Both the position numbers and the translations under genes were made by a program. DNA of 32,746 nt from an uncultured SAR116 cluster alpha proteobacterium. GTDB taxonomy: Bacteria > Pseudomonadota > Alphaproteobacteria > Puniceispirillales > Puniceispirillaceae. The stretch spans positions 1 to 32,746 of the forward strand of contig CABYZM010000018.1 of assembly GCA_902523435.1 (NCBI GenBank), in the 5' to 3' direction. Position 1 is the first letter of the stretch; every line of letters starts with the position of its first letter. The notes below the pieces were generated by a model. That model was not told where the DNA came from and did not search any database. It worked only from the letters and a program-made list of their open reading frames with translations. Of the stretch, positions 173-24,175 are shown in pieces.

Positions 173-214
173 TCTTGCCTGGCAAGGTAATTTCCATAAA
201 TTTTGGAGGTAAAA

Positions 215-1621
215 ATGAAAACAAGACGTGATTTCATCAAGATGTCAGCTGCAGCTGGAACGGCTTTAGCTGGCACTACAGTGGCTACTTCTTCATTAGC
301 TCGACTGCCCGACCCAGTAATACAAACATCACCGGACACCGCAAGCCCCACAAAAACAGATGAAAATTCAAATTATAATCCGGTGGTCACACTAAATGGA
401 TGGACTTTGCCTTATCGAATGAACGGAGAATTTAAAGAGTTTCATTTGGTGGCAGAACCCGTAGTGCGCGAGCTAGGGCCAGGCATGACAGCTAACTTGT
501 GGGGTTATAATGGCCAGAGCCCGGGCCCGACTATTGAGGTTGTTGAAGGTGACAAAATCCGTATTTATCTAACAAATAAACTACCTGAACATACCAGCAT
601 TCACTGGCATGGCCAGCGCCTACCAAATGGTATGGATGGAGTAGCGGGGCTGAATCAAGCAGCAGTAAATCCGGGAAAAACTTTCGTTTATGAATTCCAA
701 GCCAAACGTCCTGGTACATTTATGTACCATCCTCATGCCGATGAGATGACACAAATGGCGATGGGGATGATGGGATTTTGGGTTACTCACCCACAGAATG
801 ATCATCCATGGATAAGTACCGTTGAGAGAGATTATTGCATCTTGCTGAACGCATTTGATATTGTTCCGGGGGCGGAAACTCCGAACATAATGACCATGCT
901 TGACTTTAATTTGTGGGCTTGGAACAGCAGAATATTTCCAGGAATTGCGCCCCTTGTTGCTAGAAAGAATGACCGGGTGAGGGTAAGAGTTGGCAATCTC
1001 ACGATGACAAACCATCCTATCCATGTGCATGGCATTGAATTTGAAGTAACAGGAACTGATGGAGGTCCAACTAGGCCTGAGAGTCGCTGGAAAGAGGTTA
1101 CGACTGACATCGCCGTAGGGCAGATGCGACAAATAGAGTTTGTTGCTGACGAAGAGGGCGATTGGGCAATGCACTGTCACAAAAGCCATCACTCTATGAA
1201 TGCTATGGGACATGATGTGCCAACAATGATTGGCGTTGATCATAGAGGCATTACGGAAAAAATAAGGAAATTAGTCCCAGATTACATGGTAATGGGCGAG
1301 CGAGGAATGGCCGATATGACGGAAATGACAATGCCACTTCCTGATAATACTTTGCCAATGATGACAGGAGATGGACCATATGGTTCTGTTGAAATGGGAG
1401 GAATGTTCAGCATGCTCAAGGTGCGCTCAGATCTTGCTCCGGATGATTATAGTGACCCAGGTTGGTATAAACATCCAGAAGGTCACCAGGCGTATGAGTA
1501 TAGTGGCGAATTGCCGGAGGTATCTGAAAGATTTACACCAGGCAATTCACTGATGGCTCCAAAATCGGAATTGGCGTCAGCCAATTTCAAGGCAGTTAAG
1601 CCAAATCATCGTAAAAGTTAG
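215..1621 (+). CDS. Tat-exported multicopper oxidase (copper tolerance)
   Basis: A 468-residue multicopper oxidase, probably oxidising Cu(I) or phenolic/metal substrates in the periplasm. ATG 215 is chosen because GGAGGT (205-210) sits just upstream; a TTG at 203 would overlap that site. The N-terminus has RRDFIK followed by an Ala-rich segment, a twin-arginine signal. All four copper motifs are visible: HWHG (about residue 130), HPHAD (about 172), HPIHVHG (about 267) and HCHKSHH with M331 (about 320-331). The last gives the Cys, His+5, Met+10 geometry of a type-1 site with axial Met. A His/Met-rich tail follows HCH. The downstream copD-like gene supports copper resistance. The family is certain and the physiological substrate is not. 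Confidence 0.9.
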   Translation: MKTRRDFIKMSAAAGTALAGTTVATSSLARLPDPVIQTSPDTASPTKTDENSNYNPVVTLNGWTLPYRMNGEFKEFHLVAEPVVRELGPGMTANLWGYNGQSPGPTIEVVEGDKIRIYLTNKLPEHTSIHWHGQRLPNGMDGVAGLNQAAVNPGKTFVYEFQAKRPGTFMYHPHADEMTQMAMGMMGFWVTHPQNDHPWISTVERDYCILLNAFDIVPGAETPNIMTMLDFNLWAWNSRIFPGIAPLVARKNDRVRVRVGNLTMTNHPIHVHGIEFEVTGTDGGPTRPESRWKEVTTDIAVGQMRQIEFVADEEGDWAMHCHKSHHSMNAMGHDVPTMIGVDHRGITEKIRKLVPDYMVMGERGMADMTEMTMPLPDNTLPMMTGDGPYGSVEMGGMFSMLKVRSDLAPDDYSDPGWYKHPEGHQAYEYSGELPEVSERFTPGNSLMAPKSELASANFKAVKPNHRKS

Positions 1622-1653: not shown

Positions 1654-2523
1654 ATGGATCTCTGGATTATTCTCACCCCAATCCTAAAAACATTTTTTTA
1701 TATTGTTAGCTTATTGGCTTTGGGAACGGTATTTTTTGTGAGACACTTTCACCAGTTCCAGACAGCAGAAAATGCGGAATTCTGCAAAGGTCTCAGCATT
1801 AAAGCGTGCAAATTCGGTATAGCCATTTCTGCTGGTTTGGTGTTTTCAGCAGCTGGTAATCTTGGTGGAGAAATTTGGAGCTTATTTGATCCGACTATTT
1901 TTAGTATTGCCATCACCTCTAGAGGTGGAAATGCAGCGTGCTTGGCCCTTTTAGGTTTTGCAATCATCTTGATTGGTAAAAGTTATGAGTCGGGCTCACT
2001 TTCCGTGCTTGTTTGGGTCGGCGTCTTATTGTTGTTGGCCTCTTTCATATGGACAGGACATGCCCAAAAAGCCGGTCTTATAGCACAAGGTGTTCTCTCA
2101 TTACATCTAATCGGAATAGCGTTTTGGCTTGGTTCTTTTTTTCCATTACAACGGATGTGTTCTGCACTCGAAACGGAAAGCTTGTATAAAATAGCAAGCC
2201 GATTTGGAACACTTGCTATTTTTTATGTTTGCCTTCTGATTATCTCTGGTTTGGTTTTTGCTTATATTTTAATTGCCGACCTGTCGCTCCTTTTTAGCAC
2301 AGTTTATGGAAATGTTTTTTTGCTAAAAATGACTTTTGTTTCCTCACTTCTTGGACTTGGTGCTTTGAATAAATTTAGACTTGTGCCTTTAATCAAAATG
2401 GATCCATCGATTGGTGCACAGAGGCTGCAGAAGTCTATCCAAATAGAAATGTTTATAGCTCTATTAATTCTGTCGTTTAGCGGTTTTCTCACGACATCGA
2501 CAACCCTGCCGATGGGCGGGTAG
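1654..2523 (+). CDS. copD: CopD-family copper resistance/uptake membrane protein
   Basis: A 289-residue integral membrane protein with about eight hydrophobic helices spread over the whole length and short polar loops. Organisation and position next to a multicopper oxidase match the CopD (PF05425) family, inner-membrane proteins that move copper across or sense it at the membrane. Scattered His residues in helices (for example HFHQF near residue 31 and GHAQKAG near 134) could be copper ligands. The gene starts 32 bp after the oxidase, so co-transcription is likely. No obvious terminator follows. The symbol is given by family resemblance and context; the CopC partner is not in the window. Confidence 0.75.
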   Translation: MDLWIILTPILKTFFYIVSLLALGTVFFVRHFHQFQTAENAEFCKGLSIKACKFGIAISAGLVFSAAGNLGGEIWSLFDPTIFSIAITSRGGNAACLALLGFAIILIGKSYESGSLSVLVWVGVLLLLASFIWTGHAQKAGLIAQGVLSLHLIGIAFWLGSFFPLQRMCSALETESLYKIASRFGTLAIFYVCLLIISGLVFAYILIADLSLLFSTVYGNVFLLKMTFVSSLLGLGALNKFRLVPLIKMDPSIGAQRLQKSIQIEMFIALLILSFSGFLTTSTTLPMGG

Positions 2524-2820
2524 TTACAACACTTGTCCATACATTCGTTGCTTTACTTTGATAGAGGAAACCCCCCATTAAGCAGACACCAGCACTAACG
2601 CTATTAGGGGGTGGGATAAAAGTAGGGGGCACTTCGGGGTGCAGAGCCGTGGAAGGATTTTAAAAAATTGAGGCAAAAAAGTAATATTATCGCGCGGAAA
2701 AGTCTCTGTAAGTCATTGATTTTGCGAATTGACTGTCAAGTCTTTGTCGAGCTGCAAAATCGCTGTCGGGTCTTGTCTAGTTGGCGCGTAAGTATCTGAT
2801 TTTACAGAGACGACGTCAGA
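2524..2820. other. Intergenic stretch without a supported gene
   Basis: About 300 bp between copD and a tRNA fragment. It contains G-runs (around 2607-2640) and a short GCAC/GTGC hairpin, but no open frame with a ribosome site and no T-tract terminator. I looked here for the 5' half of the tRNA whose 3' half follows at 2821 and did not find it; GGGGGTGG near 2608 is the only faint resemblance. It may be the worn end of an integrated element. Confidence 0.3.
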
Positions 2821-2865
2821 CTCATAACTTGAAGGTCGTAGGTTCAAATCCTACCCCCGCAACCA
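2821..2865 (+). other. 3' half of an initiator tRNA (fMet), probable attachment-site remnant
   Basis: The 45 bases run from the anticodon loop CTCATAA through a T-arm with GGTTCAAATCC to an acceptor strand ending CCCCCGCAACCA. This is the characteristic 3' half of bacterial tRNA-fMet. No 5' half (GCGGGGGTGG followed by the AGCAGCCTGG D-arm) precedes it, so it is not a functional tRNA. Isolated tRNA 3' halves are the usual product of tyrosine-recombinase integration at a tRNA gene. Confidence 0.7.
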
Positions 2866-2971
2866 AAAACTCAAAATAATATAAGTTTACAGCTCACCAA
2901 AAATTAGTTCGTGTGTGGGCTTTAAGTGTTGATCAGTTTAGTTGAGTTTATGAAAAGTAGGCAACACAAAG

Positions 2972-3835
2972 TTATTTATTTTCAGAAGCCGATATATAGC
3001 TTAATAGCTCATTTACTACTTCGCTACTTGCGCTAACGGTAGTTTCTTTGGTTGGAAACGTTTCTTTCTTGACATCATCGATAAATCGCTCAAATGCCTT
3101 AATTCGGGTTTCTTGGATTCTTTGTTTTAAAGAGTAGACATCTGCATATTGTTTAGAGTGTCTGGGGAAAGGACCTTTAGAATCTCCCAAAATATCCTCT
3201 GCAAATAAAAACTGTATGTCACCCTTTCCACTCCCAATCGATGAGGTGATGAGGGAGGTTCTAGGCGACAATATTTCCATCACATTATTAGGAATTACTT
3301 CAATTTCGACAGCCCAAGCACCTATGTTTTCAAGAGTTTTCAGTTCCTGATATAGCATTTTGGCCTGATTTATTGTTTTGCCGACTGCTTTAAATCCACC
3401 AGTCCAAGTGCTTTTGCGGGGGACAAGGCCAATGTGGCCCTCTGCAGGAATGCCTGCATGTGCAACGACCTCTATGAAACGGTTTCCCCATGTGCCGCAG
3501 ATTATAGAATCTGCGCCAAGTTCCATTGCGTCGAATGATAATTTCAGAGCGTCATATTCTGATTTAGCAGATTGCATAGGAAGCGCGAAGCTCATAAATG
3601 TTTTAGGCGCAGCAGCCCTCAAGGCTCTCGAAATCTCAGGTCTTTCTGGGTTATGTCTTATATTTAAGGTATCGATACCTGATAGTTCTGCGGCAGCAGC
3701 TTCTTCTTCAGTGAAAGGCAATATTTTGGTTAGTTGGCGCTTACCTTTAAATGATTGGATATCAGCAACTGTAAAATTTCGGGTACTGTATTCACCTGAA
3801 ACAGTCATAATCTTCTTATATTTATGATTTTCCAT
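2972..3835 (-). CDS. PanB-like ketopantoate hydroxymethyltransferase homologue, divergent
   Basis: A 287-residue protein with a PanB-type TIM-barrel signature. The segment GHIGLVPRKSTWTGGFKAVG (about residues 133-152) matches the GHIGLTPQ...GGYKVQGK region of 3-methyl-2-oxobutanoate hydroxymethyltransferase. EVIP (about 178) corresponds to the catalytic-Glu ECVP motif, and SIGSGKG (about 200) to the GIGAG loop. The residues that bind magnesium in true PanB (the VGDS and DLPF aspartates) are not visible: the equivalent places read LNIRHNPE and SFALP. It may therefore act on a different substrate or without that metal site. It stands alone between two tRNA-fMet remnants, with no panC or panD nearby, suggesting acquired DNA. 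The fold is a confident call; the reaction is not. Confidence 0.72.
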   Translation of the reverse strand: MENHKYKKIMTVSGEYSTRNFTVADIQSFKGKRQLTKILPFTEEEAAAAELSGIDTLNIRHNPERPEISRALRAAAPKTFMSFALPMQSAKSEYDALKLSFDAMELGADSIICGTWGNRFIEVVAHAGIPAEGHIGLVPRKSTWTGGFKAVGKTINQAKMLYQELKTLENIGAWAVEIEVIPNNVMEILSPRTSLITSSIGSGKGDIQFLFAEDILGDSKGPFPRHSKQYADVYSLKQRIQETRIKAFERFIDDVKKETFPTKETTVSASSEVVNELLSYISASENK

Positions 3836-3986
3836 TTTTGATTTTTCTCAAGACAAGCCAACTTTAGAGTCTATTTCACCAAAATCTTTTGAGTTTTGCA
3901 AAATATCCACTTTTAGTGAGGCGGAAATGTTGTTTGAGAGGGTAAGTTATAACTGCAAATACTGGATATCTAAGTAGCTTTTAAGG

Positions 3987-4030
3987 CTCTTAACTTCAAT
4001 GTCGTAGTCCAAATCCTACACCCGCAACCA
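3987..4030 (+). other. Second, decayed tRNA-fMet 3' fragment
   Basis: The 44 bases align with the fragment at 2821-2865: both run CTC(A/T)TAACTT, then GTCGTAG, then CAAATCCTAC, and end CCCGCAACCA. There are several substitutions and one deletion. The orientation is the same. The two fragments enclose 1.1 kb that contains only the PanB-like gene, as expected for tandem att sites left by an excised or degraded integrative element. Confidence 0.6.
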
Positions 4031-4194
4031 AACATATAGAATAATGAAAATGAATTAGCCTCTTTTTTGATTTGAAGCGATATTTTTGTTATTAAAATTA
4101 TCGCCCCGTTCATTGAGTGCTCTGTCGACAGTTTAAAGGCCAATGCCTGCTTATTTTGCTATATGCTTAAGCCGCGCCTTTTGGGGATGCTTTT

Positions 4195-5343
4195 TCATGA
4201 CCTAAGGTATGCTGGGCCTAATTCACCAATGGAAGTTGCGACGGAGTCGCGACTATTTGTTGGCAAGCCTTCGCTTGGCACCGGCGTATCATATGCATAG
4301 TTTGGGTCTACTTTCTGGTGTTTCCAAGTCTCCCGCATTTCCCTCCAAGCGCCAAATAGTGTCCTCGGAGCCGGCATGTCATCTGCTGTAGCGGAATGCA
4401 ATGCCTTTAAATTATAACAGGGCACACCGGCAAACATATGGTGCTCAAGATGCCAGTTCATATGCCAATATAGAAACTCAGACAGTGGATCTAGGGTAAT
4501 TGTGCGAACCGATTTACGAAAGTCTGTGTCGTTACTCTTTAACCCGCAATGCATCGGTACCCCAACAATATATCGCCAAAAATTAGCTATAAATGGGGAA
4601 CCTGAAATTAATACCGCTAATATCGGCTGACCAACTGCTAAAGACCCACTTATTACAATTGCATGGAACAATAGTGTAATGCGCGCCCAAACACTGGCTC
4701 GGCGGCGATGCTCATCATATCCACTATACAGCTCCTCCCCCCATGAATTGAAAGGATTATCAAACCTGTTTGCTGCAATTAGAACGAAGTTTTGTAATGT
4801 TGGTAGTATCCCTTTTGACTGGTATCCACCAAAGATATTTAGGGTCAGAAGCTGAAGAAGGTACAGCATCCTAAGGGACGGGGTAGCCGGCATCACTTCT
4901 TCACGGTCACCTTCAGGGTGCAAAGTGAAACGGTGATGATAATTGTGGCTGAACTGGTAGATCTCAAAATTATTCCAGCCGAGAAGTGAAAATATTCTAA
5001 GAAAGCTCTCGTTCAACCATTTGGTTTTGAATACAGTGCGATGGCACAATTCGTGATGTGGTGCAGTGAAAAAGGAACCAACTGTTCCGTGGAAAAAAAG
5101 TGCAACCAAACATCCAACCCACATCTGCTGTGAAAACAAATAGAAGGTAACACCTCCGGTCGCTAACCATAAACTAAGATGACCCAACGACATGAATAAT
5201 CCGCGTGCGTCACTGGGCATCATTAAATCACGTAAAATTTTCTTGTCGATAGGACAGCGATACCAACGAATTTGAAGAGTTTTACTAACCTCGCGCATCG
5301 GAGCCAGTTTCATATCCTTTATTTTACTTGAAAGAGTGTTCAT
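4195..5343 (-). CDS. Membrane fatty-acid desaturase
   Basis: A 382-residue di-iron membrane desaturase (PF00487 type). Three histidine clusters are present in the canonical order: HELCH (residues 97-101), HNYHH (133-137) and HLEHH near residue 285. Hydrophobic helices lie at about 50-90, before the first box, and around 205-250. Length and box spacing fit acyl-lipid or sphingolipid-type desaturases that introduce double bonds into membrane lipids using O2. Carotenoid-modifying relatives share these boxes and cannot be excluded. It is monocistronic, transcribed away from 5344-5819, and lies next to the tRNA-remnant region. Confidence 0.85.
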   Translation of the reverse strand: MNTLSSKIKDMKLAPMREVSKTLQIRWYRCPIDKKILRDLMMPSDARGLFMSLGHLSLWLATGGVTFYLFSQQMWVGCLVALFFHGTVGSFFTAPHHELCHRTVFKTKWLNESFLRIFSLLGWNNFEIYQFSHNYHHRFTLHPEGDREEVMPATPSLRMLYLLQLLTLNIFGGYQSKGILPTLQNFVLIAANRFDNPFNSWGEELYSGYDEHRRRASVWARITLLFHAIVISGSLAVGQPILAVLISGSPFIANFWRYIVGVPMHCGLKSNDTDFRKSVRTITLDPLSEFLYWHMNWHLEHHMFAGVPCYNLKALHSATADDMPAPRTLFGAWREMRETWKHQKVDPNYAYDTPVPSEGLPTNSRDSVATSIGELGPAYLRS

Positions 5344-5819
5344 TTAAGAATGTTTCCCATCATTTTACTATTTTCCTAGACCAACTCATCAAGCGCAGAA
5401 GCATTCGCTGCATGTCGGCTTAGCATCAATCTCTTCGCTATAATTTCTCAATTTATAACACAATAAAAATACGGCTTCGAAAAGAAAAAAAATGATTAAA
5501 TGAAATCAATTGATGATGAATAAACACAATTACAAGCGGCACTGCTAGGAAAGTTTATCACAAATATTCCAATGTCTCGCCTCTAAGGGAAGGAATATGG
5601 AGTAGACGATTCCGTTCATTCAATTCTATGTAGTTTTCTGTTTCCAGTAAGGCGAGGAAATTAGTTGCGCGGGTCTGTGATGGTAAAAATATCATAGATT
5701 CAGCCTTTTAAATTTTTTTTCTCAAGTGAGCTTGCATGAGTCACAAATCCTTAACTTTTTTTGGTAGGGGCCAAAGATTATTTTTGTAGCTAAGTAAAAG
5801 GCTTCATGAGGAAAAAGCT
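5344..5819. other. AT-rich intergenic stretch, no gene seen
   Basis: This 476 bp separates the divergent desaturase and the 61-aa gene at 5820. No convincing frame is present on either strand. A CTCGCCT at 5576-5582 and its complement AGGCGAG at 5650-5656 could form a long-range stem. Otherwise I see only promoter-like A/T-rich sequence. Confidence 0.3.
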
Positions 5820-6005
5820 ATGTCTGAACACCTAGTGCCTGCGCAACACTTTATGAAACAATACAATTACACAGAGCTGGAACTACAATTTATGAGAAAG
5901 AAAAATAAGCGAGCTATTCTGATGTTAGAAGGTTGTTACTTCGTAAATATGAAAGAAGTGGAAGCTAAATTCACCAGCGAAGAAATTTTTCTTTCGTCAA
6001 TATAG
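5820..6005 (+). CDS. Small hypothetical protein (61 aa)
   Basis: ATG 5820 is preceded by GAGG (5808-5811) at suitable spacing, and the frame runs 61 codons. The product is charged, with a basic patch RKKNKR near residues 26-31, then a hydrophobic segment and a C-terminal acidic helix. No signal peptide or membrane helix is seen, and I recognise no family. The size and basic patch would allow a small regulator or excisionase-like protein, but nothing decisive supports that. It is included because of its ribosome site and the absence of any competing frame. Confidence 0.42.
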   Translation: MSEHLVPAQHFMKQYNYTELELQFMRKKNKRAILMLEGCYFVNMKEVEAKFTSEEIFLSSI

Positions 6006-6150
6006 TAATTTATACTCAAGCCTTTTCATGACGAAAATTAGTGAAGTTTAGATTGATGGATAGTTCTCCAGCCTGAATGACCTGACGGCACTTTTCTTGT
6101 AAGTCGTTTGGGGTGTCTGTTTCTCATAGTTTTGGCACTCCCATTTCTTT

Positions 6151-6372
6151 TTACAGGCTGATTATATTTGTTTGCTTTAATATCTCAAGATGTTTCTCAC
6201 ACTTCTCAGAGCCAATTTCAATAATTTCAGACTTCAATGCTCTGAGTTCTTTGTTAATAATTCTTCGTTCTTTTTTTGATTTTTTATGCTTGGTTAGGCC
6301 GCTTTTGCGGTAGTTCCATTTTTTACTGCATTTGGGGGCGGAAACAGGTGTGGAATTAAGTGTGCCGTGCAT
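6151..6372 (-). CDS. Small basic hypothetical protein (73 aa)
   Basis: The ATG at 6370-6372 is preceded (on the minus strand) by AAAAGGACAGTC, a plausible ribosome site, so I prefer it to a TTG further out. The 73-residue product is very rich in Lys and Arg (KHKKSKKERR around residue 31) and then forms a probable amphipathic, coiled-coil-like helix (KELRALKSEIIEIGSEKCEK). No family is recognised. It could bind nucleic acid, or it may not be expressed. It lies convergent to the 61-aa gene at 5820. Confidence 0.35.
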   Translation of the reverse strand: MHGTLNSTPVSAPKCSKKWNYRKSGLTKHKKSKKERRIINKELRALKSEIIEIGSEKCEKHLEILKQTNIISL

Positions 6373-6539
6373 GACTGTCCTTTTATTAGCAAACAATCAC
6401 CAGACTCACATTCTTCTGTGACATTTTTTTTACCAAACTTTTTAGCTGCAATCAGAAACCAATTAAATAAATTGGTAATCAGAATTAAATTAATTCGTAA
6501 AATTTATGGGCTAAATTTTTCTTTTTTAGGGAGTTAAGG

Positions 6540-8021
6540 ATGAAAATTAAGCTCAAATTTGTCACAGCTTTTCTAGTCTTTTGCGCTGTACACACAGCAA
6601 GCGCGCTGGAGATGAAGGAAGTTGGGAATTTCAAAATTGGGGATGGAGAGGGTTACGCTGAGATGTTGAGGTATCACCCTCAATCTAAAAGTCTTATGGT
6701 AACTGCCTCTGAAACTGGAACTATTGAAAGGTTGTCTATTCAGACTGTATCCAACATTTCAAAAATGGAAGCTCTCGACCTATCGGGCGGTGACGTCACA
6801 GCGGTCGCAATCCATGGAAATATGATTGCTGCTTCTATCAAAGCTGACGCAGCTGATGCAGCTGGTATGGTTAAATTGTTTAACTCAAATGGTAAAGAGC
6901 TGGCCATATTTACGACAGGTCCACTTCCTGACAACGTCGCTTTTTCGCCAGATGGCCGCTACCTTCTGACTGCAAATGAGGGCGAGCCATCAGACGATTA
7001 CAGCGTTGACCCTGAGGGTAGTTTCACTCTCATTGATTTGGGCTCTGGGCATGCAAACGCCAAGATCACACAAATAGGTTTGTCTGACTTTGCCGTTCCA
7101 AGGGGCGGGCGAATAGTGAAACCTGGCTCAAGCTTTGCAGCAGACGCGGAACCTGAATATGTCGCTTTCGATTCAACCGGTAGAACCGCCTATGTCACTC
7201 TGCAAGAAAATAATGCTGTAGCGGTAATTGATGTGGTCAAAGCTAAAGTTTTAGCTGTCGTTGGATTGGGAGTCAAAAATGTGTCACGTACCAGTCACGA
7301 TATGTCGAACAAGGATAATGGCATCAATATGAAGCGGTGGCCAGTTCTGATGATGTACCAGCCGGATGCAATCGCCACATATGAGGTAAATGGAGCGACT
7401 TATCTTGTAACAGCAAATGAAGGGGATGCAAAAGACTATGATGGCTTTTCAGAAGAGACGCGGGTCGCAAAATTAAAGCTTGATAAAACCATGTTCCCCA
7501 ATGCTGACACGCTACAAAAGCCGGAACATTTAGGTCGTTTGAAGACTACAACGACAATGGGAGACACTGACGGTGATGGAGACCATGACATAATCTATGC
7601 TTACGGCGGTCGTTCATTCTCGATTTGGGGTGCTGATGGCAGTCTTATTTTTGACAGTGGCAATGCTTTTGAAAATGTTATTGCGAAACGCTCACCGGAA
7701 GTTTTCAATGCAAATGGCGGAAAATCCGAATTTGATGACCGCTCAGATGACAAGGGTCCAGAGCCTGAAGCCCTTGATCTGGGTAAGATTGAAGGTAGAA
7801 CCTATGCTTTTATCGGTATGGAGAGAAACAATGCAATTTTCGCTTATGATATTACCCTCCCGTCGGACCCGCATATGGTTGGTTATATGATGCCAACTGA
7901 TATGCATAATTCTCCAGAAGGACTTGAATTTATATCAGCTAAAGATAGCCCAACGGGAACCCCACTTCTTGCGGTTGCATATGAAATGACCGGAACCATT
8001 GCCGTGTATGAAATAAGATAA
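6540..8021 (+). CDS. Secreted choice-of-anchor-I family beta-propeller protein
   Basis: A 493-residue protein with a Sec signal peptide (hydrophobic core FVTAFLVFCAVHTASA, cleavage near residue 22). The mature part shows the repeating blades of a WD40/YVTN-like propeller. Motifs typical of the choice-of-anchor-I family are PLPDNVAFSPDGRYLLTANEGEPSD, RPDAI-like YQPDAIATYEV with LVTANEGDAKDYDGFSEE, DTDGDGDHDIIYAYGGRSFSIW, and DDRSDDKGPEPEALDLG near the C-terminus. Proteins of this group are exported, often metal-binding, and some are associated with phosphatases. No C-terminal anchor is seen here. ATG 6540 follows GGGAGTTAAGG. Its setting beside phosphonate genes suggests, but does not show, a role in phosphorus scavenging. 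Confidence 0.8.
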   Translation: MKIKLKFVTAFLVFCAVHTASALEMKEVGNFKIGDGEGYAEMLRYHPQSKSLMVTASETGTIERLSIQTVSNISKMEALDLSGGDVTAVAIHGNMIAASIKADAADAAGMVKLFNSNGKELAIFTTGPLPDNVAFSPDGRYLLTANEGEPSDDYSVDPEGSFTLIDLGSGHANAKITQIGLSDFAVPRGGRIVKPGSSFAADAEPEYVAFDSTGRTAYVTLQENNAVAVIDVVKAKVLAVVGLGVKNVSRTSHDMSNKDNGINMKRWPVLMMYQPDAIATYEVNGATYLVTANEGDAKDYDGFSEETRVAKLKLDKTMFPNADTLQKPEHLGRLKTTTTMGDTDGDGDHDIIYAYGGRSFSIWGADGSLIFDSGNAFENVIAKRSPEVFNANGGKSEFDDRSDDKGPEPEALDLGKIEGRTYAFIGMERNNAIFAYDITLPSDPHMVGYMMPTDMHNSPEGLEFISAKDSPTGTPLLAVAYEMTGTIAVYEIR

Positions 8022-8104
8022 GCCTAGTAGCAATTGCCGCTCACTGTAACGCATGTCATTAAAATGTAATTATTAGGCAGTAGCGTAAAAAGCCCTTAAA
8101 GTGT

Positions 8105-8149
8105 GAAGTCTCAGCATCCTCACTTAGGGCGCTGAGACTTCTTCCATTT
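8105..8149 (+). terminator. Hairpin after the propeller gene
   Basis: GAAGTCTCAGC (8105-8115) and GCTGAGACTTC (8131-8141) form a perfect 11-bp stem with a 15-nt loop, followed by TTCCATTTT. The tail is an imperfect T-tract, so it is a likely terminator for 6540-8021. It is also only 27 bp ahead of the next gene and could serve as a leader element. Confidence 0.5.
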
Positions 8150-8168
8150 TAAATTGAGAAACGAAATT

Positions 8169-8384
8169 ATGGCTAAATCACCTTCTGTGAATAAAACTGC
8201 TTCGAAAAAGGTAAAAGCGAAAACCAAAGCAAAGTTTCCGACAGATCAGCAAAAAGAGCAAATTCAAGTCACTCAAAAAAATACATTTGAAGCTAAGTTT
8301 GGAGAAGGTACAGCATTCGACCTTGATTATGGTAAGCTGGTTATTATCGCTTTACTTTTATATGTCGCTTATCAAGTAAGTTAA
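8169..8384 (+). CDS. Small tail-anchored membrane protein (71 aa)
   Basis: ATG 8169 is used; a TTG at 8154 lacks a ribosome site. The N-terminal half is dominated by Lys, Ser and Ala (KKVKAKTKAK around residues 14-23). The C-terminus is a single hydrophobic helix, LVIIALLLYVAYQ, ending two residues before the stop, the layout of a tail-anchored inner-membrane protein with a cytoplasmic basic domain. I recognise no family. It stands alone between the propeller gene and the convergent PHP gene. Confidence 0.55.
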   Translation: MAKSPSVNKTASKKVKAKTKAKFPTDQQKEQIQVTQKNTFEAKFGEGTAFDLDYGKLVIIALLLYVAYQVS

Positions 8385-8470
8385 TATTTGGAAAAGCTCA
8401 GGGTTAATAATGTTCATTTATAAAGGCTAGTTCTCTAACTTTTACGAGCAGGCCTTGAAGAGTTCTAGGT

Positions 8471-11832: not shown

Positions 11833-12636
11833 ATGTTAGAAATTCGTAGTCTGTCCAAATCGTATGGCGAGATCAAAGCGATAAAGGACGTATCTTTTGA
11901 AGTCACAAAGCCACAAATGATTGGCATTATCGGGCGTTCGGGAGCTGGAAAATCAACGCTCCTCAGGGTCATAAATCGACTGGCGGATGCATCAAGCGGT
12001 GAAGTAATATTCGACGATAAAAATGTATTAACTCTGTCTGGGCAGCAGAAACGTGATTGGCAGCGGGACTGTGCCATGATTTTTCAACAGTTCAACCTCG
12101 TGCCTCGCTTGGATGTTCTTTCCAACGTGATCATGGGACGACTTAATGGTCAATCTCTGTTTCGCTCGTTACTCAAGTTGTTTAACGAGGAGGAACGATA
12201 TGACGCTCTGACATTGCTAGACCGCTTTGGAGTTTCCCAAACAGCATTGCAGCGAGCAGAGAATTTGTCTGGCGGACAACAACAGCGGGTCGCAATTTGT
12301 AGAGCGATGATGCAATCCCCTAAATTACTTTTAGCAGATGAACCTATTGCCTCTTTGGACCCGCTCAATGCGCGTCTAGCCATGGAAGCACTGCATTCGA
12401 TTAACAAAGACGACGGTATTACAGTAATTTGCAATTTACATACACTTGATACAGCGCGCCACTATTGCGACAGAATAATAGGAATGAAATCGGGTGAAAT
12501 AGTATTCGATGGAACACCAAGAAAACTCACTGACAAACAAGCTAGAGATATATACGGAGCAGAAGCCGATGAGGCATTCGAAGCGTCTGTGACGTCCACG
12601 TCATTGGGCAACACCCCAATAAAGGCTGCCAGCTAG
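11833..12636 (+). CDS. phnC: Phosphonate ABC transporter ATP-binding protein
   Basis: A 267-residue ABC ATPase that powers phosphonate import. Walker A GRSGAGKST at residues 34-42, Q-loop in MIFQQFNLVPRL near 85, signature LSGGQQQRV near 150, Walker B LLLADEPIASLD near 167 and the H-loop in CNLHTLD near 205. The long insertion between Q-loop and signature (SLFRSLLKLFNEEER) is typical of PhnC. AAGAGGT precedes the ATG. It is the first gene of phnC-phnD-phnE-phnE2 and lies directly downstream of the proposed Pho box. Confidence 0.94.
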   Translation: MLEIRSLSKSYGEIKAIKDVSFEVTKPQMIGIIGRSGAGKSTLLRVINRLADASSGEVIFDDKNVLTLSGQQKRDWQRDCAMIFQQFNLVPRLDVLSNVIMGRLNGQSLFRSLLKLFNEEERYDALTLLDRFGVSQTALQRAENLSGGQQQRVAICRAMMQSPKLLLADEPIASLDPLNARLAMEALHSINKDDGITVICNLHTLDTARHYCDRIIGMKSGEIVFDGTPRKLTDKQARDIYGAEADEAFEASVTSTSLGNTPIKAAS

Positions 12637-12671
12637 GCGGCGTTAACTTTGCTAACAAGGAGAACTTAACA

Positions 12672-13631
12672 ATGTTAAGAAAAGCTTTAGTTTTGGCCGC
12701 TGCACTTTTGGTGGGCGGCGCGGGCTCTGCAATAGCAGACGGCCACATTAAATACACTGGACCAAAGATGGACTTGAGCAAATTCCAGCCTGAATTCCGC
12801 GTAGGCTTTCTTGGAGATGAAGCTGCCCAAGATATTATTACGCGTAACGCATGTTTTGGGCCCTATCTTGAAGCTGCATACAACGTTCCGGTCAAGATGT
12901 TTACGTTTAAAGATTATGCAGGAACTATGGAGTCAATTCTTGGTGGAAACTTGGACTATGGCTGGTTTGGTGCTTCAGGCTATGCGGGGATTTATCTCGA
13001 GGATCCAGAGGCTGTTGTTCCTGTTCTGACTAGAATGCAGCCAACTGGCGATACAGGTTATTATTCAGTAATGGTAGCGCGCGCCGATTCAGGCATCAAA
13101 TCTCTTGACGACCTTAAAGGTAAAAAATTGGGTTTTGCTGATCCAAACTCAACCTCTGGTTATCTGATTCCGTCTATCGAACTTCCTGAGATGTACAATG
13201 TTGACATCGACACATATTTCTCAAGCGCTACGTTCCAAGGCGGCCACGAGAATAATGTTTTAGCAGTGCTTAATGGTGATGTTGATGCAGGCGTTACCTG
13301 GGTTTCAGGTGTAGGTGAATGGTCTGAAGGTTATTCATCTGGCAACCTTCGCAAAATGGTGGACAAAGGCATCCTTAATATGGATGACATCGTTCAGGTT
13401 TGGTCATCTAAGCTTATACCGAACGGGCCGATTGTCATGCCAAAAGCGCTGCCTCAAGAAGCAAGAGACATAATGATTGGCGTTAAGCAATGGATCCACA
13501 AAAACGACCCAGAATGCTCTGAAAATGTCGCGAACGGCATTGTGAAGGCATGGGTTCCTGTCGACCACTCTTTCTACGAAGTGGTAGTAAAGGCGCGTAA
13601 AGCTAAAATTGAAGCAAAGAAAAAAGGCTAA
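12672..13631 (+). CDS. phnD: Periplasmic phosphonate-binding protein
   Basis: A 319-residue solute-binding protein of the PhnD family. A Sec signal peptide covers residues 1-22 (hydrophobic LVLAAALLVGGAG, cleavage after AIA). Family features are FGPYLEAAYNVPVKMF, GNLDYGWFGASGYAGIY, a LDDLKGKKLGFADPNSTSGYLIP segment (SxSG-type phosphonate-binding loop near residues 158-164), and AVLNGDVDAGVTW. GGAG at 12659-12662 sits ahead of the ATG. A strong hairpin follows the stop, probably setting a high PhnD-to-permease ratio. The ligand range (2-aminoethylphosphonate or others) cannot be told by eye. Confidence 0.94.
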   Translation: MLRKALVLAAALLVGGAGSAIADGHIKYTGPKMDLSKFQPEFRVGFLGDEAAQDIITRNACFGPYLEAAYNVPVKMFTFKDYAGTMESILGGNLDYGWFGASGYAGIYLEDPEAVVPVLTRMQPTGDTGYYSVMVARADSGIKSLDDLKGKKLGFADPNSTSGYLIPSIELPEMYNVDIDTYFSSATFQGGHENNVLAVLNGDVDAGVTWVSGVGEWSEGYSSGNLRKMVDKGILNMDDIVQVWSSKLIPNGPIVMPKALPQEARDIMIGVKQWIHKNDPECSENVANGIVKAWVPVDHSFYEVVVKARKAKIEAKKKG

Positions 13632-13643
13632 CAAAAGCCGCAT

Positions 13644-13681
13644 AGAGATGGGGGCTTCTTAAATCCCCATCTCTTTTTATT
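13644..13681 (+). terminator. Intra-operon terminator/attenuator after phnD
   Basis: AGAGATGGGG (13644-13653) pairs perfectly with CCCCATCTCT (13665-13674), followed by TTTTTATT: a textbook intrinsic terminator between phnD and phnE. Partial read-through would give more binding protein than permease. The stem could also protect the phnD mRNA 3' end. Confidence 0.65.
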
Positions 13682-13703
13682 CGATGAAATTAGGATGTCA
13701 CTT

Positions 13704-14585
13704 ATGTCACTTTCTCAATCTCAAACAGTTGGTTTGATTCTACCGGATCACCTCCAGCAAGTTGAAAAAAACCTGAAGCAAATGACCAAACAGCGAACAC
13801 TCTATTCGTTGTTTTCGATAGCACTAGTAGCTTTTGTTGTTGTAACAGGTGTGAAGGTTGCTGACAGCTACAATGCAGGTTCATTCCAGCGAGGTCTTGA
13901 AAATTTTTTTGATTATCCGATTGACCTGATTGTTGAGGCATGGGAAGCGGGCTGGGTTTGGCCCACTCTTCTTGTTCATCACCTGCCAGATTTGTTTAAC
14001 ACTATAAACATTGCAGTTTTTTCAACTGTTGTTGGGGCAATATTTGGTTTTCTATTCAGTGTTCTGTCGAGCAAAAATTTAATGAAAAATGAGGCAGTGA
14101 GACAATTTTTTCGTCGCACAATGGATATATGTAGGTCATTTCCTGAGCTCGTTATAGCCATGGTGTTTTTGTATATTATGGGTAAATCGCTAGTCCCAGC
14201 ATTAATCGCTATAACCATCCACACTTCTGGCGCTTTGGGAAAATTATTTTCAGAGGCTATCGAAAACATAGACAAAAAACCATTAGAGGGGCTCGAGGCT
14301 GCAGGTGCTGGTTGGTGGCAGCAAATTCGCTTTGGTGTGATTACTCAAGCTTTGCCACTCATGGTTTCCTATTCGCTACTAAGATTGGAAATTAACGTTC
14401 GCGCATCAACAATATTAGGCTTCGTTGGTGCCGGTGGAATTGGAGAAGCATTGTCTACGAATATTCAATGGCGATACGGTGATGAGGTTACAGCGATTAT
14501 GTTTTTGCTCGTGATTACGATTGTTTCATTGGATTATTTATCAGGTTATGGACGCGCTAAACTCATCGGTTTAGGAGAAAAATAA
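13704..14585 (+). CDS. phnE: Phosphonate ABC transporter permease 1
   Basis: A permease of about 293 residues with roughly six membrane helices, the first near residues 36-56. The cytoplasmic EAA loop reads EGLEAAGAGWWQQIRFGVITQALP (about 191-214), and GFVGAGGIGEAL near 237 is the PhnE C-terminal signature. I prefer ATG 13704 because AGGA (13692-13695) stands eight bases before it; an ATG at 13695 overlaps that site and would add three residues. It follows the phnD terminator and its stop overlaps the next gene in TAATG. Confidence 0.9.
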   Translation: MSLSQSQTVGLILPDHLQQVEKNLKQMTKQRTLYSLFSIALVAFVVVTGVKVADSYNAGSFQRGLENFFDYPIDLIVEAWEAGWVWPTLLVHHLPDLFNTINIAVFSTVVGAIFGFLFSVLSSKNLMKNEAVRQFFRRTMDICRSFPELVIAMVFLYIMGKSLVPALIAITIHTSGALGKLFSEAIENIDKKPLEGLEAAGAGWWQQIRFGVITQALPLMVSYSLLRLEINVRASTILGFVGAGGIGEALSTNIQWRYGDEVTAIMFLLVITIVSLDYLSGYGRAKLIGLGEK

Positions 14586-16012
14586 TGGCGTCAGTTTCAG
14601 CGGTTAGAACCATGTCAGAACAGGTAACATTTGATGCTGTAGAGAAGGAATATAAAAAACATTCTCTTTATACATTTGTCACAATTGCATGCGTTGTCAT
14701 CTATTTTATCTTTTCAACTGTCCAATTCAACATCATTTCGAGCTTTGATAGATGGAATGGCGAACGGGGCAGCTTATTCATGCTTGACATGTATGCGCAT
14801 AAAGATCACGTCTCCATGAAGTGGGAAAAACCCGAGGAAACAACTGTGAAATTTGAGGGTGGTTATAGATATGACTACTTTAATCCTGATCACAGTTTTG
14901 GCGGAAAAATATTGCCTCCCGAGTGGTTTTCAAAAGATGCGAAGACTGGGGTCTCCATAGTCAATTTTCAAAATGGTGGCTCTGTCATTCTCGCCAGAGA
15001 GGAAGTGTCTTTGGTAAATTGGCCAGGTTTGGAAAGCGACCTTGTCTTCAAACGATATGATGACGGCAAACCTTATGTAGTAGGCTATGAGAATAGAGAA
15101 TTGGAACTACCAAAATGGATACGCGTGACTGATAACAAGATTGAAGTGCGCCCAACATTGTGGGAGCGAGTTCAGCTATATAGGAAGAAAGTAGAGGTGC
15201 ACCGCTATGATTATGGTTGGAAATTTTTCTTCTTTGATTTTAAAAGCCCTCTGCGAGATTTCAGTATCTGGCAAGCACTTGGATTAGTGTTTTCGGGAGA
15301 CAGAATAATAGCTGAAAAATCTAATCTAAACTTAGTTTTTACCGAAATAAAAGATAATGAGCTATGGCAGCACGGCGTTGTTTGGTTTGCTTTGCTAGAG
15401 ACTGTTATAATGGCTGTTTTGGGCACTTTGATCGCTTCTATAGTCGCCTTACCGCTAGCTTTTTTGACTGCGCGAAATGTATTTGGCAAAGCAGGACTTC
15501 GTTTCTTTTTGCGCCGATGTTTCGACTTCCTGAGAGGTATTGATATGCTTGTTTGGTCTCTTATTTTTCTAAGAGCTTTTGGCCCAGGTGTATTCACAGG
15601 TATTTTTGCGATTGCATTTACAGACACTGGTTCCCTTGGAAAATTAATGTCAGAAGCAATTGAAAATGTGGATCAAAAGCAGAACGAAGGAGTTGAATCC
15701 ACTGGCGCGAGTAAAGTGCAGCAACATAGATTTGGAATAATACCTCAGATCCTTCCTGTGTTCATTTCAACATCGCTATATGTTTTAGAATCAAATACAA
15801 GAAGCGCCATTATCATCGGCGCAATGGGCGCCGGCGGAATTGGATTACAATTCTTAGGAGCGCTGCAGACCGGGACAGATTTTGAAAACGTAGCATACAT
15901 GGCGATCGTGGTTTTGGCAGTGGTTATCGGAATGGATATGGCGTCATCTTCCATCAGAAACCGACTTATCGGCATGGACCAGATAAAGTTATTTGCAGGA
16001 GTAAAACAATGA
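14585..16012 (+). CDS. phnE: Phosphonate ABC transporter permease 2 with large inserted domain
   Basis: A 475-residue second PhnE. One helix (about residues 30-50) is followed by some 200 mostly hydrophilic residues rich in Asp, Lys and aromatics before the helices and EAA loop NEGVESTGASKVQQHRFGIIPQILP (about 360-384). It ends with GAMGAGGIGLQF. PhnE pairs forming a heterodimer channel are common in alphaproteobacteria, and longer second subunits occur; the insert should lie in the periplasm by helix count. It starts within the TAATG of phnE1 and ends in ATGA overlap with the next gene, so all are translationally coupled. Confidence 0.88.
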   Translation: MASVSAVRTMSEQVTFDAVEKEYKKHSLYTFVTIACVVIYFIFSTVQFNIISSFDRWNGERGSLFMLDMYAHKDHVSMKWEKPEETTVKFEGGYRYDYFNPDHSFGGKILPPEWFSKDAKTGVSIVNFQNGGSVILAREEVSLVNWPGLESDLVFKRYDDGKPYVVGYENRELELPKWIRVTDNKIEVRPTLWERVQLYRKKVEVHRYDYGWKFFFFDFKSPLRDFSIWQALGLVFSGDRIIAEKSNLNLVFTEIKDNELWQHGVVWFALLETVIMAVLGTLIASIVALPLAFLTARNVFGKAGLRFFLRRCFDFLRGIDMLVWSLIFLRAFGPGVFTGIFAIAFTDTGSLGKLMSEAIENVDQKQNEGVESTGASKVQQHRFGIIPQILPVFISTSLYVLESNTRSAIIIGAMGAGGIGLQFLGALQTGTDFENVAYMAIVVLAVVIGMDMASSSIRNRLIGMDQIKLFAGVKQ

Positions 16013-16431
16013 GGCAAGGTCTTTTACTAGTAGCAGCTGTTTCTATAATTTCGGCTCATAGCAATTCATTTGCACAGGAGCAAGAAGCAGGCAAACTTAC
16101 AGATACAGAGGCAGTTTTTCAAAAGTTAGTGGAGCAGTGCGACAATGTAGATATGTTAATGTTAAGAGCGCGCATTCGACTAGAATTGCCAAGAACAACG
16201 GAAGAGGCAGCCGGTGTGGCAAGAGAAAAGCTCTTACAAGGTTTTGAGCTATGTGCATCTGGAAATATGGCTGAAGGAAAAGTTGTTTTAGAAGAAGGAT
16301 ATGAAATAGCAAAAATTGGGGTGACTGAAAAATTTGGGCAAGAGGGGACTGGCGGAGATGAAACAACAGTTTCTGAACCAAAGCCCGTTGAAACAGCAAG
16401 CAACAAAAACCCTTGGTGGAAATTCTGGTAG
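16009..16431 (+). CDS. Small periplasmic protein coupled to the phnCDE operon
   Basis: A 140-residue exported protein. Signal peptide LLLVAAVSIISAHSNSFAQ, cleavage near residue 23. The mature part is helical and acidic, with two cysteines (QCDN about 44, ELCASG about 83) that could form a disulphide. It then has a disordered Gly/Thr/Glu segment and an aromatic C-terminus NPWWKFW that may sit at the membrane surface. Its ATG overlaps the phnE2 stop in ATGA, so it is made with the transporter. I recognise no named family. A helper of PhnD or of the PhnE2 extracytoplasmic insert is a reasonable guess only. Confidence 0.75.
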   Translation: MRQGLLLVAAVSIISAHSNSFAQEQEAGKLTDTEAVFQKLVEQCDNVDMLMLRARIRLELPRTTEEAAGVAREKLLQGFELCASGNMAEGKVVLEEGYEIAKIGVTEKFGQEGTGGDETTVSEPKPVETASNKNPWWKFW

Positions 16432-16434
16432 GTA

Positions 16435-16959
16435 TCAGATGTCAAAATTGTGGACAAAATCCTCTTGTTCTTTCGTTTCTACGCTTCCAGGCCGGTGAAG
16501 TCTCACAATACTGATAGCATTTTTAGGCGACATGCCGAGCCGCCGAAAAAGTAGCGCTGTAACCAAGCCTGTGCGTCCAAGTCCAGCTTGGCAATGTATA
16601 TAAAACACTTTGTTTGTTTCTAGATATGTTTCCATTTTTAGAATCATTGAACGAAGTGTCAGGTGTGATTCCAAGTTTGGAACTGAGCGGTCATCAATAG
16701 GAAAATGTGTAACTGCAAAACCATAATTAATAAAATCTGAGAAGGGATTATTAATACCAAGTTGGCGCAAGTCTGCATTAGAAATTAGACTGAAAATATA
16801 CTCCACCCCTAGTGTTTTTAATGTCCTGAGGTCTCCCAATGCTGTTTTTTGATGTTTGCAAGGGCAGGCGCCAGCAAGAAATAAACCAGAGTTGTTCGAC
16901 AATCCAGATAGGATCGGGCTGTTAAAGTTATATTCTGTTATGTCAAATTGATTGTTCAA
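16435..16959 (-). CDS. Cysteine-based (dual-specificity-like) phosphatase in the phosphonate cluster
   Basis: A 174-residue phosphatase. The P-loop HCQAGLGRTG gives nucleophile C123 and R129 (CX5R), and FPIDD around residue 90 supplies the general acid Asp. The C-terminal HRPGSVETKEQEDFV segment is typical of CDC14/PTP-like enzymes (COG2453). No ATG is available; TTG 16959 is the start consistent with the domain, with GGAAAT just upstream. The gene is convergent with 16009-16431 (three bases apart) and divergent from the acyltransferase gene. Phosphatases of this type recur in phosphonate loci, but the substrate is unknown. Confidence 0.75.
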   Translation of the reverse strand: MNNQFDITEYNFNSPILSGLSNNSGLFLAGACPCKHQKTALGDLRTLKTLGVEYIFSLISNADLRQLGINNPFSDFINYGFAVTHFPIDDRSVPNLESHLTLRSMILKMETYLETNKVFYIHCQAGLGRTGLVTALLFRRLGMSPKNAISIVRLHRPGSVETKEQEDFVHNFDI

Positions 16960-17015
16960 GGTATTTCCATTTCATAAAAATTGGCCAATAGCCTCATCCA
17001 TAAAGGACTGTTTGT

Positions 17016-17630
17016 ATGCCAAAACTCTCACCTTCAGAGCCATTCATACACAAGGATTGTGAAATAAATAATTCATCATTCGGAGCTTACACGGAGATCG
17101 GGCAAGGGTCTCGTGTCAGCAACAGCACCTTAAATGACTATAGCTATTGTGATCGATTTGCTGACATAGCAAATGCAAAGATTGGAAAATTTTCAAATAT
17201 TGCAAGTTTTAGTCGAATAGGGCCGACGGATCACCCTAAAGAATTAGCTAGCTTGCACCATTTTCATTATCGCTCAAGCTATTATTTTGATAATGTCGAG
17301 GATGACTCAGACTTCTTCGCATACAGGGCCTCGCGTATCGCTACGCTTGGTCACGATACTTGGGTCGGTCATGGTGCAATAATTCGCCCTGAAGTTAAGG
17401 TAGGAGACGGTGCGATTGTTGCAGCAGGTGCAGTGGTTACTAAGGATGTATCTGATTACATGATTGTCGCAGGCATACCTGCCACGCCCCTGCGCGCCCG
17501 CTTTCCTAAAAATGTTGCCAGCCGCCTGATCAATCTTGCCTGGTGGGACTGGCCACATGAGAAACTGAAACAAGCCCTGCCAGATTTTCGTGCCTTGCCG
17601 ATTGAGGCGTTCTTGGAGAAGTACGTCTAG
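17016..17630 (+). CDS. Phosphonate-cluster hexapeptide-repeat acyltransferase
   Basis: A 204-residue left-handed beta-helix acyltransferase. Repeats run from about residue 10 to 75 (CEINNSSFGAYTEIGQGSRV). The acceptor loop with catalytic His is around ASFSRIGPTDHPKEL (about 66-80), and a second coil set runs IRPEVKVGDGAIVAAGAVVTKDV with GIPATPLRARF near 160. This matches the transferase-hexapeptide proteins found in C-P lyase loci (TIGR03308 type), thought to acetylate aminoalkylphosphonates or a pathway intermediate, like PhnO. AAGGA precedes the ATG. Its stop overlaps the phnF stop in CTAG. Confidence 0.83.
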   Translation: MPKLSPSEPFIHKDCEINNSSFGAYTEIGQGSRVSNSTLNDYSYCDRFADIANAKIGKFSNIASFSRIGPTDHPKELASLHHFHYRSSYYFDNVEDDSDFFAYRASRIATLGHDTWVGHGAIIRPEVKVGDGAIVAAGAVVTKDVSDYMIVAGIPATPLRARFPKNVASRLINLAWWDWPHEKLKQALPDFRALPIEAFLEKYV

Positions 17631-18343
17631 GCTGAACTGTCCTCGTCTACTACAAAGGCAATATGATTGGCCGAAAAGAGGCTAGTGCCGAATTCAATAG
17701 GAACATTATTTGACTGGTTCAAACTGCGGGTTCGCAAGAGCGGATCTCCGACCTGACAAGCTAGATGGATCGCGGTTTCAGGTGTTGCTAAAACTGCGGT
17801 AATCTCAGTGCGTTGGCGTTCATAATCCAAAATATTGCACGCGGCAAGTGCTGTTGAAATGGACCCTGCTGATTCGAGCGCTTCGATGAAGCCATCAAGT
17901 GGTGCTGCTGGAAATATGCTGGTGAAATGGGTGATCGGGATATTGTTTGAAAGTCCGATCCCCTCGACGACATGAACTTCGGCAGTTCTACCCAAGGCAA
18001 GATTTTCCAGCTCAATCTTGTCGGCATGACGTGTTTCAAGTCGCAGAAAGCGGAGTGTCGGAGCTTGCTGTGCATGAACTAGGTTTTTCGAAAACCGTGT
18101 TTTCCGACCGATTTTGTAGGTCATTGGTTTCGTGGCAACAAAGATGCCGGAACCACGTCTGGAATAGACAATGCCATGGTCACGCAATTCAGTTATAGCA
18201 TGCCGTACAGTATGACGATTTACCCCAAACCGGCAAGCAAGCTCTGTTTCGGTTGGCAGTTTTTCCCCCGGCTTGTAATGGCCAGTCGCAATCTCTTCAT
18301 GCAACCGGTCGTGAATAGAACGCCATAGCATCGATTTTGTCAC
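17627..18343 (-). CDS. phnF: GntR-family repressor of phosphonate genes
   Basis: A 238-residue HutC-subfamily GntR regulator. The N-terminal winged helix reads GHYKPGEKLPTETELACRFGVNRHTVRHAI (about 21-50), followed by RRGSGIFVA. The C-terminal UTRA domain spans about 85-235. Similarity of the start (WRSIHDRLHEEI) and position to PhnF is clear. GTG 18343 is the likely start; an in-frame ATG at 18331 would still keep the HTH. It is divergent from phnG, so the 90-bp region between them should hold its operator and both promoters. Confidence 0.9.
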   Translation of the reverse strand: MTKSMLWRSIHDRLHEEIATGHYKPGEKLPTETELACRFGVNRHTVRHAITELRDHGIVYSRRGSGIFVATKPMTYKIGRKTRFSKNLVHAQQAPTLRFLRLETRHADKIELENLALGRTAEVHVVEGIGLSNNIPITHFTSIFPAAPLDGFIEALESAGSISTALAACNILDYERQRTEITAVLATPETAIHLACQVGDPLLRTRSLNQSNNVPIEFGTSLFSANHIAFVVDEDSSA

Positions 18344-18371
18344 GAAAACTTAACATAATGTCTGTTGAGTA

Positions 18372-18415
18372 ACTATAGCAATACAATTATTATTAGTCTA
18401 GTTGTATAGTATAAT
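18372..18415 (+). promoter_or_regulatory. phnG promoter with possible PhnF operator
   Basis: TATAAT at 18410-18415 is a consensus -10, 18 bp before the phnG ATG. Overlapping it are inverted arms ACTATA (18372-18377) / TATAGT (18405-18410) and ATACAA (18381-18386) / TTGTAT (18402-18407). GTATAG in the right arm resembles the core of known PhnF operators. A repressor bound here would block both divergent promoters. Confidence 0.38.
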
Positions 18416-18432
18416 GATGCAGGTTTTTTGAG

Positions 18433-22175: not shown

Positions 22176-22178
22176 ACA

Positions 22179-24092: not shown

Positions 24093-24175
24093 TTATTTGC
24101 TCTCCTGAAGAGGGTTTCACCTAAATGTAATAATAAACAATTATAAACGTTGTAATAAAAATCTGTGACAGAAAC

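Follow-up and report, generated by a model that had tools for sequence, protein, structure and literature searches.

A probable tandem array of integrase-less gene cassettes with phage-type attachment sites at the initiator tRNA of SAR116 marine bacteria

What places two 3' halves of an initiator tRNA gene about 1.1 kb apart on the same strand, with a single gene between them? This arrangement lies on a contig of an uncultured SAR116 cluster alphaproteobacterium (assembly GCA_902523435.1, contig CABYZM010000018.1), a marine bacterium whose genome, G000, is 64% complete. The window, meaning the whole stretch of DNA that was analysed, is the entire contig of 32,746 nucleotides from base 1 onward. 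An original prediction made from the letters alone had recognized the two tRNA-fMet halves with one gene between them, and both the coordinates and the profile E-values agreed with it. Throughout, a cassette means a stretch of cargo bounded at its end by a tRNA-fMet 3' half. The features of the window are these:

203..1621 (+): multicopper oxidase, cargo of the cassette ending at half 1 (Pfam PF07732/PF07731)
1654..2523 (+): CopD-like membrane protein, cargo of the cassette ending at half 1 (Pfam PF05425, E 1.3e-18)
2637..2813 (+): left arm (P) of a phage attachment site, in register with viral contig L193 (72.8%, 191 columns)
2641..2685 (+): decayed 3' end of a phage holin gene within the left arm, from the alignment with L193
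2814-2865 (+): tRNA-fMet 3' half 1, anticodon stem to CCA (profile match E 9.8e-18)
2866..2923 (+): right arm (P') of a phage attachment site, in register with viral contig L185 (87.5%, 40 bp)
2972..3835 (-): PanB-like gene (ketopantoate hydroxymethyltransferase superfamily), sole gene of its cassette (Pfam PF02548, E 4.6e-31)
3984-4030 (+): tRNA-fMet 3' half 2, degraded, 47 nt (profile match E 8.5e-8)
4195..5343 (-): fatty-acid desaturase-like gene, in the flank past half 2 (Pfam PF00487)

The profile used to find halves was built from 27 clean examples and searched in 522,589 bases; in reversed DNA its top match had an E-value of 0.53. Half 1 spans 52 nt (CGTCAG...CCA) and differs from the intact consensus at two positions, half 2 is conserved in another genome (G005:C3; L095 4411-4459), and the source genome carries a third half at G000:C40:3772-3823(-). 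An intact tRNA-fMet, which the original prediction had proposed to locate, was not found in the 64%-complete source genome; in the window itself ARAGORN reported no tRNA, and Rfam reported none at E 1 in the first 12 kb. Because the contig starts at window base 1, an intact gene lying upstream would be off the contig, and the rRNA operon ending in tRNA-fMet most likely sits beyond its left end.

The protein encoded between the halves scored 95 bits, set against a PanB cut-off of 272, and since it falls under both NCBIfam cut-offs we do not claim true PanB function for it. PanB above the TIGR00222 cut-off was present elsewhere in 4 of 12 genomes searched, G000 not among them. The named relatives of the PanB-like gene are SAR116 single-cell genomes at 12 of 13 loci, and the thirteenth is labelled Alphaproteobacteria only. 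Past half 2, positions 11833-25321 resemble what we take, from phn names given to the translations, to be a phosphonate uptake and C-P lyase operon.

In relatives, halves of this kind stand behind the initiator tRNA. The intact tRNA-fMet followed the 23S and 5S rRNA genes in all three loci tested with Rfam, and downstream of it were up to four halves on the same strand, mostly spaced 1-16 kb apart. At least two sites were present in 22 of the 54 loci scanned (the window, L002, L085-L104, L106-L117 and L238-L257; L105 duplicates L095 and was left out of the counts), and all 22 were same-strand; 40 genome regions had been picked mainly because of clustered matches, so these array counts are not prevalence figures. 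Sites below 25 bits were excluded from cassette extraction and pairing and from the array, arm-type, arm-extent and terminator counts, and many weak half matches, being the tail of another tRNA, were not counted as halves. Gene content differed among close relatives at the same tRNA-fMet site. The halves were no more decayed far from the intact tRNA than close to it (rho -0.13, n = 21), which leaves insertion solely at the array head unsupported. A reading by eye of the matches listed for 240 genomes turned up just two instances outside SAR116 (G144, G298) of same-strand copies no more than 15 kb apart. The initiator tRNA had been predicted to be a less usual target; in SAR116 arrays it is a hot spot.

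The point at which the halves begin is shared with phages. Across 58 array halves, identity to the tRNA was low through nucleotide 26 and high from nucleotide 27, in the 5' strand of the anticodon stem, and in 92 phage halves among the matches listed it climbed over the same few bases, the search pattern itself having fixed the phage-half letters from nucleotide 31 on. A tRNA-fMet 3' half was present in at least 120 viral contig stretches; among those listed, 24 had the tRNA 5' half as well, 92 were without it, and 4 lay too close to the contig end. Among the matches listed, 56 viral contigs extended 2.5 kb or more past the half on its downstream side, and 50 of these encoded a same-strand integrase no more than 3.5 kb from it; these integrases were recognized by profile, and a motif search missed them. 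Ten proteins were common to half-bearing viral contigs, including integrase, RecE, Erf, replication, repressor, RusA, holin, and tail families. Marine temperate phages use the tRNA-fMet half as their attachment site, and their integrase gene adjoins it. On viral contig L130 the order was two ORFs that we take to be lysozyme- and holin-like (names given from comparison and recall), the half, small ORFs, and the integrase. Another contig, L144, opens with a SAR116 5S-tRNA spacer that shares 91-97% identity with eight g14 loci (101-129 bp aligned). It runs from this spacer into an intact tRNA-fMet and then a phage right arm, with a phage integrase 1.4 kb further on; we take this contig to be a lysogen junction.

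Of 198 genomes searched with the L130 integrase, one encoded a relative at E 1e-10 or better, so full prophages of the L130 type are rare among the genomes searched, and the 86 records that this integrase matched among deposited phages were all below 60% identity, with no close relative. A 26-row integrase profile matched many tyrosine recombinases in 151 genomes, presumably including XerC/D-like ones, and among the places listed only G033:C44 was near a half; because it matches so many recombinases and few of them lie near halves, this profile cannot be used to count prophages.

In most cases the DNA flanking the halves is the P' and P arms of a SAR116 temperate-phage attachment site. A left arm in register with phage was found at 32 of 67 distinct halves, with zero matches in each of ten random controls, and a right arm at 52 of 78 sites (9 of 12 intact genes among them), where the controls gave 0, 0, 0, 0, 0, 0, 0, 3, 0, and 0. 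An earlier left-arm comparison with loose limits had given 11/67 control matches and was superseded by this stricter in-register test. Arm homology extended for a median of 84 bp on the left (n = 35) and 115 bp on the right (n = 47), with cargo directly beyond. In the window, both arms of half 1 matched phage attachment sites, and its left arm also matched G005:C24 and G000:C40; by the same in-register comparison half 2 had a phage-like arm on neither side. The holin ORF of L193 (3945-4319) terminates at the same place as the decayed holin remnant in the window. Taken with the same-strand arrays behind the tRNA-fMet of the rRNA operon, the two arms of half 1 bear out the original reading of this locus as the product of repeated integration at the initiator tRNA. 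A hairpin followed by a T-run was present after the CCA at 50 of 75 array sites and at 73 of 90 phage halves (among those listed), compared with 3 of 73 stretches further downstream and 7-9% of shuffles; incoming DNA would thus restore both the end of the tRNA and its terminator.

With intervals shorter than 300 bp excluded, 36 complete cassettes were obtained, their lengths lying between 1.1 and 16.3 kb. Both arms were phage-like in 18 of them, one arm in 14, and neither in 4. When phage types were assigned by left arm, 16 of 20 cassettes had one and the same type at their start and end (permuted mean 6.2; no permutation among 20,000 gave as many as 16), and the types on the two sides of a single tRNA half agreed in 12 of 30. 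This pattern, agreement within cassettes and less of it across halves, indicates that cassettes came with their own attachment site and that neighbours often came with different ones. The cassettes held a median of 3.5 ORFs of at least 100 aa, on both strands (65 plus, 71 minus), and by Pfam their cargo was metabolic or sensory: the class III adenylate/guanylate cyclase domain (PF00211) was the commonest family, in 12 of 136 ORFs, and further cargo included ABC transporters, an ATP-grasp/transglutaminase/proteasome-like module, multicopper oxidases, and CobW.

Cassettes recur between genomes as units, and homology breaks at the halves. They were found in other genomes between other neighbours, and in the 15 listed cassette pairs that had at least half of one member in common, all 15 were in the same orientation and none was inverted. 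A 4.4 kb cassette was 96.6% identical between G097 and G072 with different neighbours, and one of 2,385 bp was 99.8% identical between G033 and G023, G033 also having a second, tandem copy of its gene. Homology breakpoints were counted after masking the tRNA halves and discarding any breakpoint up to 600 bp from an intact tRNA. Of the 241 counted, 67 lay no further than 200 bp from a half, and 2000 rotated controls averaged 16.1 and never exceeded 36; this test supersedes an earlier one that included intact tRNAs, in which 81 of 298 fell within 150 bp (control mean 17.6).

The window shows the same behaviour. Positions 1-2582 were 96.5% identical to G005:C24 18-2599 and positions 2968-8444 were 94.5% identical to G005:C3, so that the homology partner changes from one contig to the other at half 1. 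The PanB-like gene and half 2 are common to the window and G005; the left boundary differs, being in G005 a short junction ending CCCCCGCAACCA. Homology therefore stops at the stop codon of the PanB-like gene, and the single-gene state of this cassette may have come from later exchange. The single-gene cargo described originally is present as one gene between the halves, with the caution that this state may be secondary.

Together, these data make it probable, in our judgement, that the window contains a section of a tandem array of cassettes anchored at tRNA-fMet, with phage-type sites and an integrase supplied in trans. We read the cassettes as integrase-less, integron-like units bearing a phage attachment site. 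A circle of cargo plus phage attachment site would integrate by a crossover in the anticodon stem-loop; this would restore the 3' half of the tRNA and bring a new transcription terminator, and the old 3' half would be displaced downstream and left as a scar. Because nearly all cassettes are without an integrase, we infer that the enzyme acts in trans, and it would probably be the tyrosine integrase of a phage with the same arm type. The original suggestion to look for a recombinase and matching attachment sites thus had a divided outcome: no recombinase was found in the window and the cassettes mostly have none, and matching integrases were located in temperate phages. Two cargo proteins (window:2972-3835, L087:11090-12295) were compared with the viral contigs and neither had a relative there, which leaves packaging of cassettes by phages unsupported. 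A more complete version of this proposal, an integron-like SAR116 system in which the cassette site is a phage attP with a tRNA-fMet half, arm-type-matched phage integrases acting in trans insert and shuffle metabolic cassettes where the rRNA operon ends, and each cassette carries a terminator that insulates the operon, is put forward tentatively, as a little short of an even prospect.

A different history would make the cassettes decayed prophages that are now immobile: old fMet prophages kept their two attachment ends, as in the formation of CIMEs, and the cargo came later by some other route. Phage holin 3' ends do lie beside the left arm in the window and in C40, with a longer piece in G023 (L086), and the accessible parts of two papers already describe a CIME and accretion scheme (PMC5704250, PMC3146451). 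Weighing the other way, 33 of 36 cassettes had no detectable phage DNA beyond the arms in a comparison with partial phage contigs, the other three had only a hidden arm or P-P' junction, and whole cassettes recur between different neighbours. We regard this history as unlikely, if the foremost of the alternatives. The three exceptions, none with a half counted at the spot, are L087 2031-10786, L089 8059-12401, and L104 8484-16099 (in tRNA orientation); the arms hidden in these long cassettes are probably older, worn scars.

Homologous recombination could also account for part of the pattern, if site-specific integration made only the first repeats and RecA-type exchange between the halves and arms, which form direct repeats of 100-300 bp, has since swapped the cassettes. 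Such exchange likewise predicts the kept orientation and the breakpoints at halves, and intact-looking halves were indeed found beyond degraded ones. Recombination within the halves would not tie the arms of a cassette so strongly to one type (16/20, against 12/30 across halves), although exchange of whole cassettes would preserve that pairing. This account seems to us slightly less likely again than decayed prophages.

Classical islands, each integrated at tRNA-fMet with an integrase of its own that was later lost, are improbable. Recombinases do lie beside a half in a few intervals or flanks, in G083 (L243), G033:C44 (L238), and G013 (L251), and G005:C24 has a serine recombinase and two tyrosine recombinases beside a half. 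Yet integrase PHROGs each matched at most 2 of the 136 cassette ORFs, and with cassettes down to 1.1 kb and one gene, and arms reaching the cargo, there is little space for remnants of a lost gene. Finally, a dispersed tRNA-derived repeat, named originally as the finding that would overturn the integration reading, or chance tRNA-like sequence might be suspected from three halves in one incomplete genome, but the profile E-values, the ordered same-strand arrays behind tRNA-fMet, the phage arms, and the breaking of inter-genome homology at the halves contradict it, and we rejected it as having practically no likelihood.

Among known systems, the cassette arrays come close to the additive flexible genomic islands at tRNA genes described, in the portions available, for Alteromonas (PMC4119200), Ca. 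Actinomarinales (PMC7771536), and, with tRNA-Lys repeats, Ca. Methylopumilus (PMC10872708). In both, cassettes sit at a tRNA target, 3'-end direct repeats remain, and number and content vary; the SAR116 arrays share the insertion at a conserved tRNA with 3'-end direct repeats and the content that varies among close relatives. They differ in that the SAR116 target is the initiator tRNA ending the rRNA operon and the cassette ends are paired temperate-phage arms, which go unreported in those portions. CIMEs, tandem accretion, and the Dehalococcoides ssrA islands provide integrase-less tandem elements (PMC5704250, PMC3146451, as far as their accessible text goes) that also keep attachment sites and stack behind one RNA gene; retention of both attachment sites corresponds to the 18 of 36 SAR116 cassettes with both arms. 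Those elements derive from conjugative or serine-integrase islands, whereas the SAR116 arms are those of temperate phage.

Integron cassettes and CALINs, as presented in the accessible text of PMC11389934, likewise form oriented, mostly integrase-less arrays with one recombination site per cassette that are common to genomes. Their site is attC, whereas SAR116 cassettes end in tRNA-fMet halves with phage arms, and their genes, several per cassette, lie on both strands. Tycheposons and marine phage satellites, known to us second-hand from parts of PMC10872708 and PMC11389934, are also marine and tRNA-targeted with metabolic cargo; according to the same passages tycheposons have their own tyrosine recombinase, which most SAR116 cassettes are without. 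Nor do the cassettes resemble prophages in having structural, lysis, or replication genes, their interiors matching nothing in the partial phage contigs except for the arm or junction in 3 of 36. The SAR116-assigned marine phages G16 and G18 were linked to SAR116 by an integrase and a tRNA attachment site (PMC3861242), the same two elements as here; the accessible part of that paper does not name tRNA-fMet or cassette arrays. In a SAR116 phylogenomics paper (PMC8547437), the main text as available does not contain the words integrase, prophage, or flexible, and a search by title and abstract start, which mostly did not extend to subscription literature, returned no paper on a tRNA-fMet array or phage-armed cassettes in SAR116.

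Additive tRNA islands are one way in which streamlined ocean bacteria acquire genes, and the accessible text of the three island papers (PMC4119200, PMC7771536, PMC10872708) leaves open which recombinase moves them. In SAR116 the cassette ends, with their type-matched arms, suggest one particular enzyme family, namely the integrases of SAR116 phages that target fMet, which makes the question directly testable. If the proposal is true, temperate phages would drive the shuffling of metabolic genes without carrying the genes themselves.

Several further observations were made at these loci. At L093 (G005:C24), 13357-17941(-), the 3' end of a 549-aa serine recombinase gene overlaps a tRNA-fMet half, and two tyrosine-recombinase ORFs (386 and 593 aa) that overlap each other come next; the serine-recombinase layout resembles the serine-integrase layout of the Dehalococcoides ssrA islands as given in the accessible part of PMC3146451. 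A second junction type retains no more of tRNA-fMet than its final ~21 nt, with a common sequence around TAGGGTCTTGA in front of them; it was found in four SAR116 genomes (L095 5599(-), L104 17673(-), L254 3578(+), and L256 112(-)), and its exact 25-nt form had no match among viral contigs. An intact variant tRNA-fMet, CGCGGGATGG...CTACTCCCGC, is present at L052 (G036:C59), and halves ending ACTCCCGC like this variant occur at other places in several genomes, perhaps derived from a second target copy.
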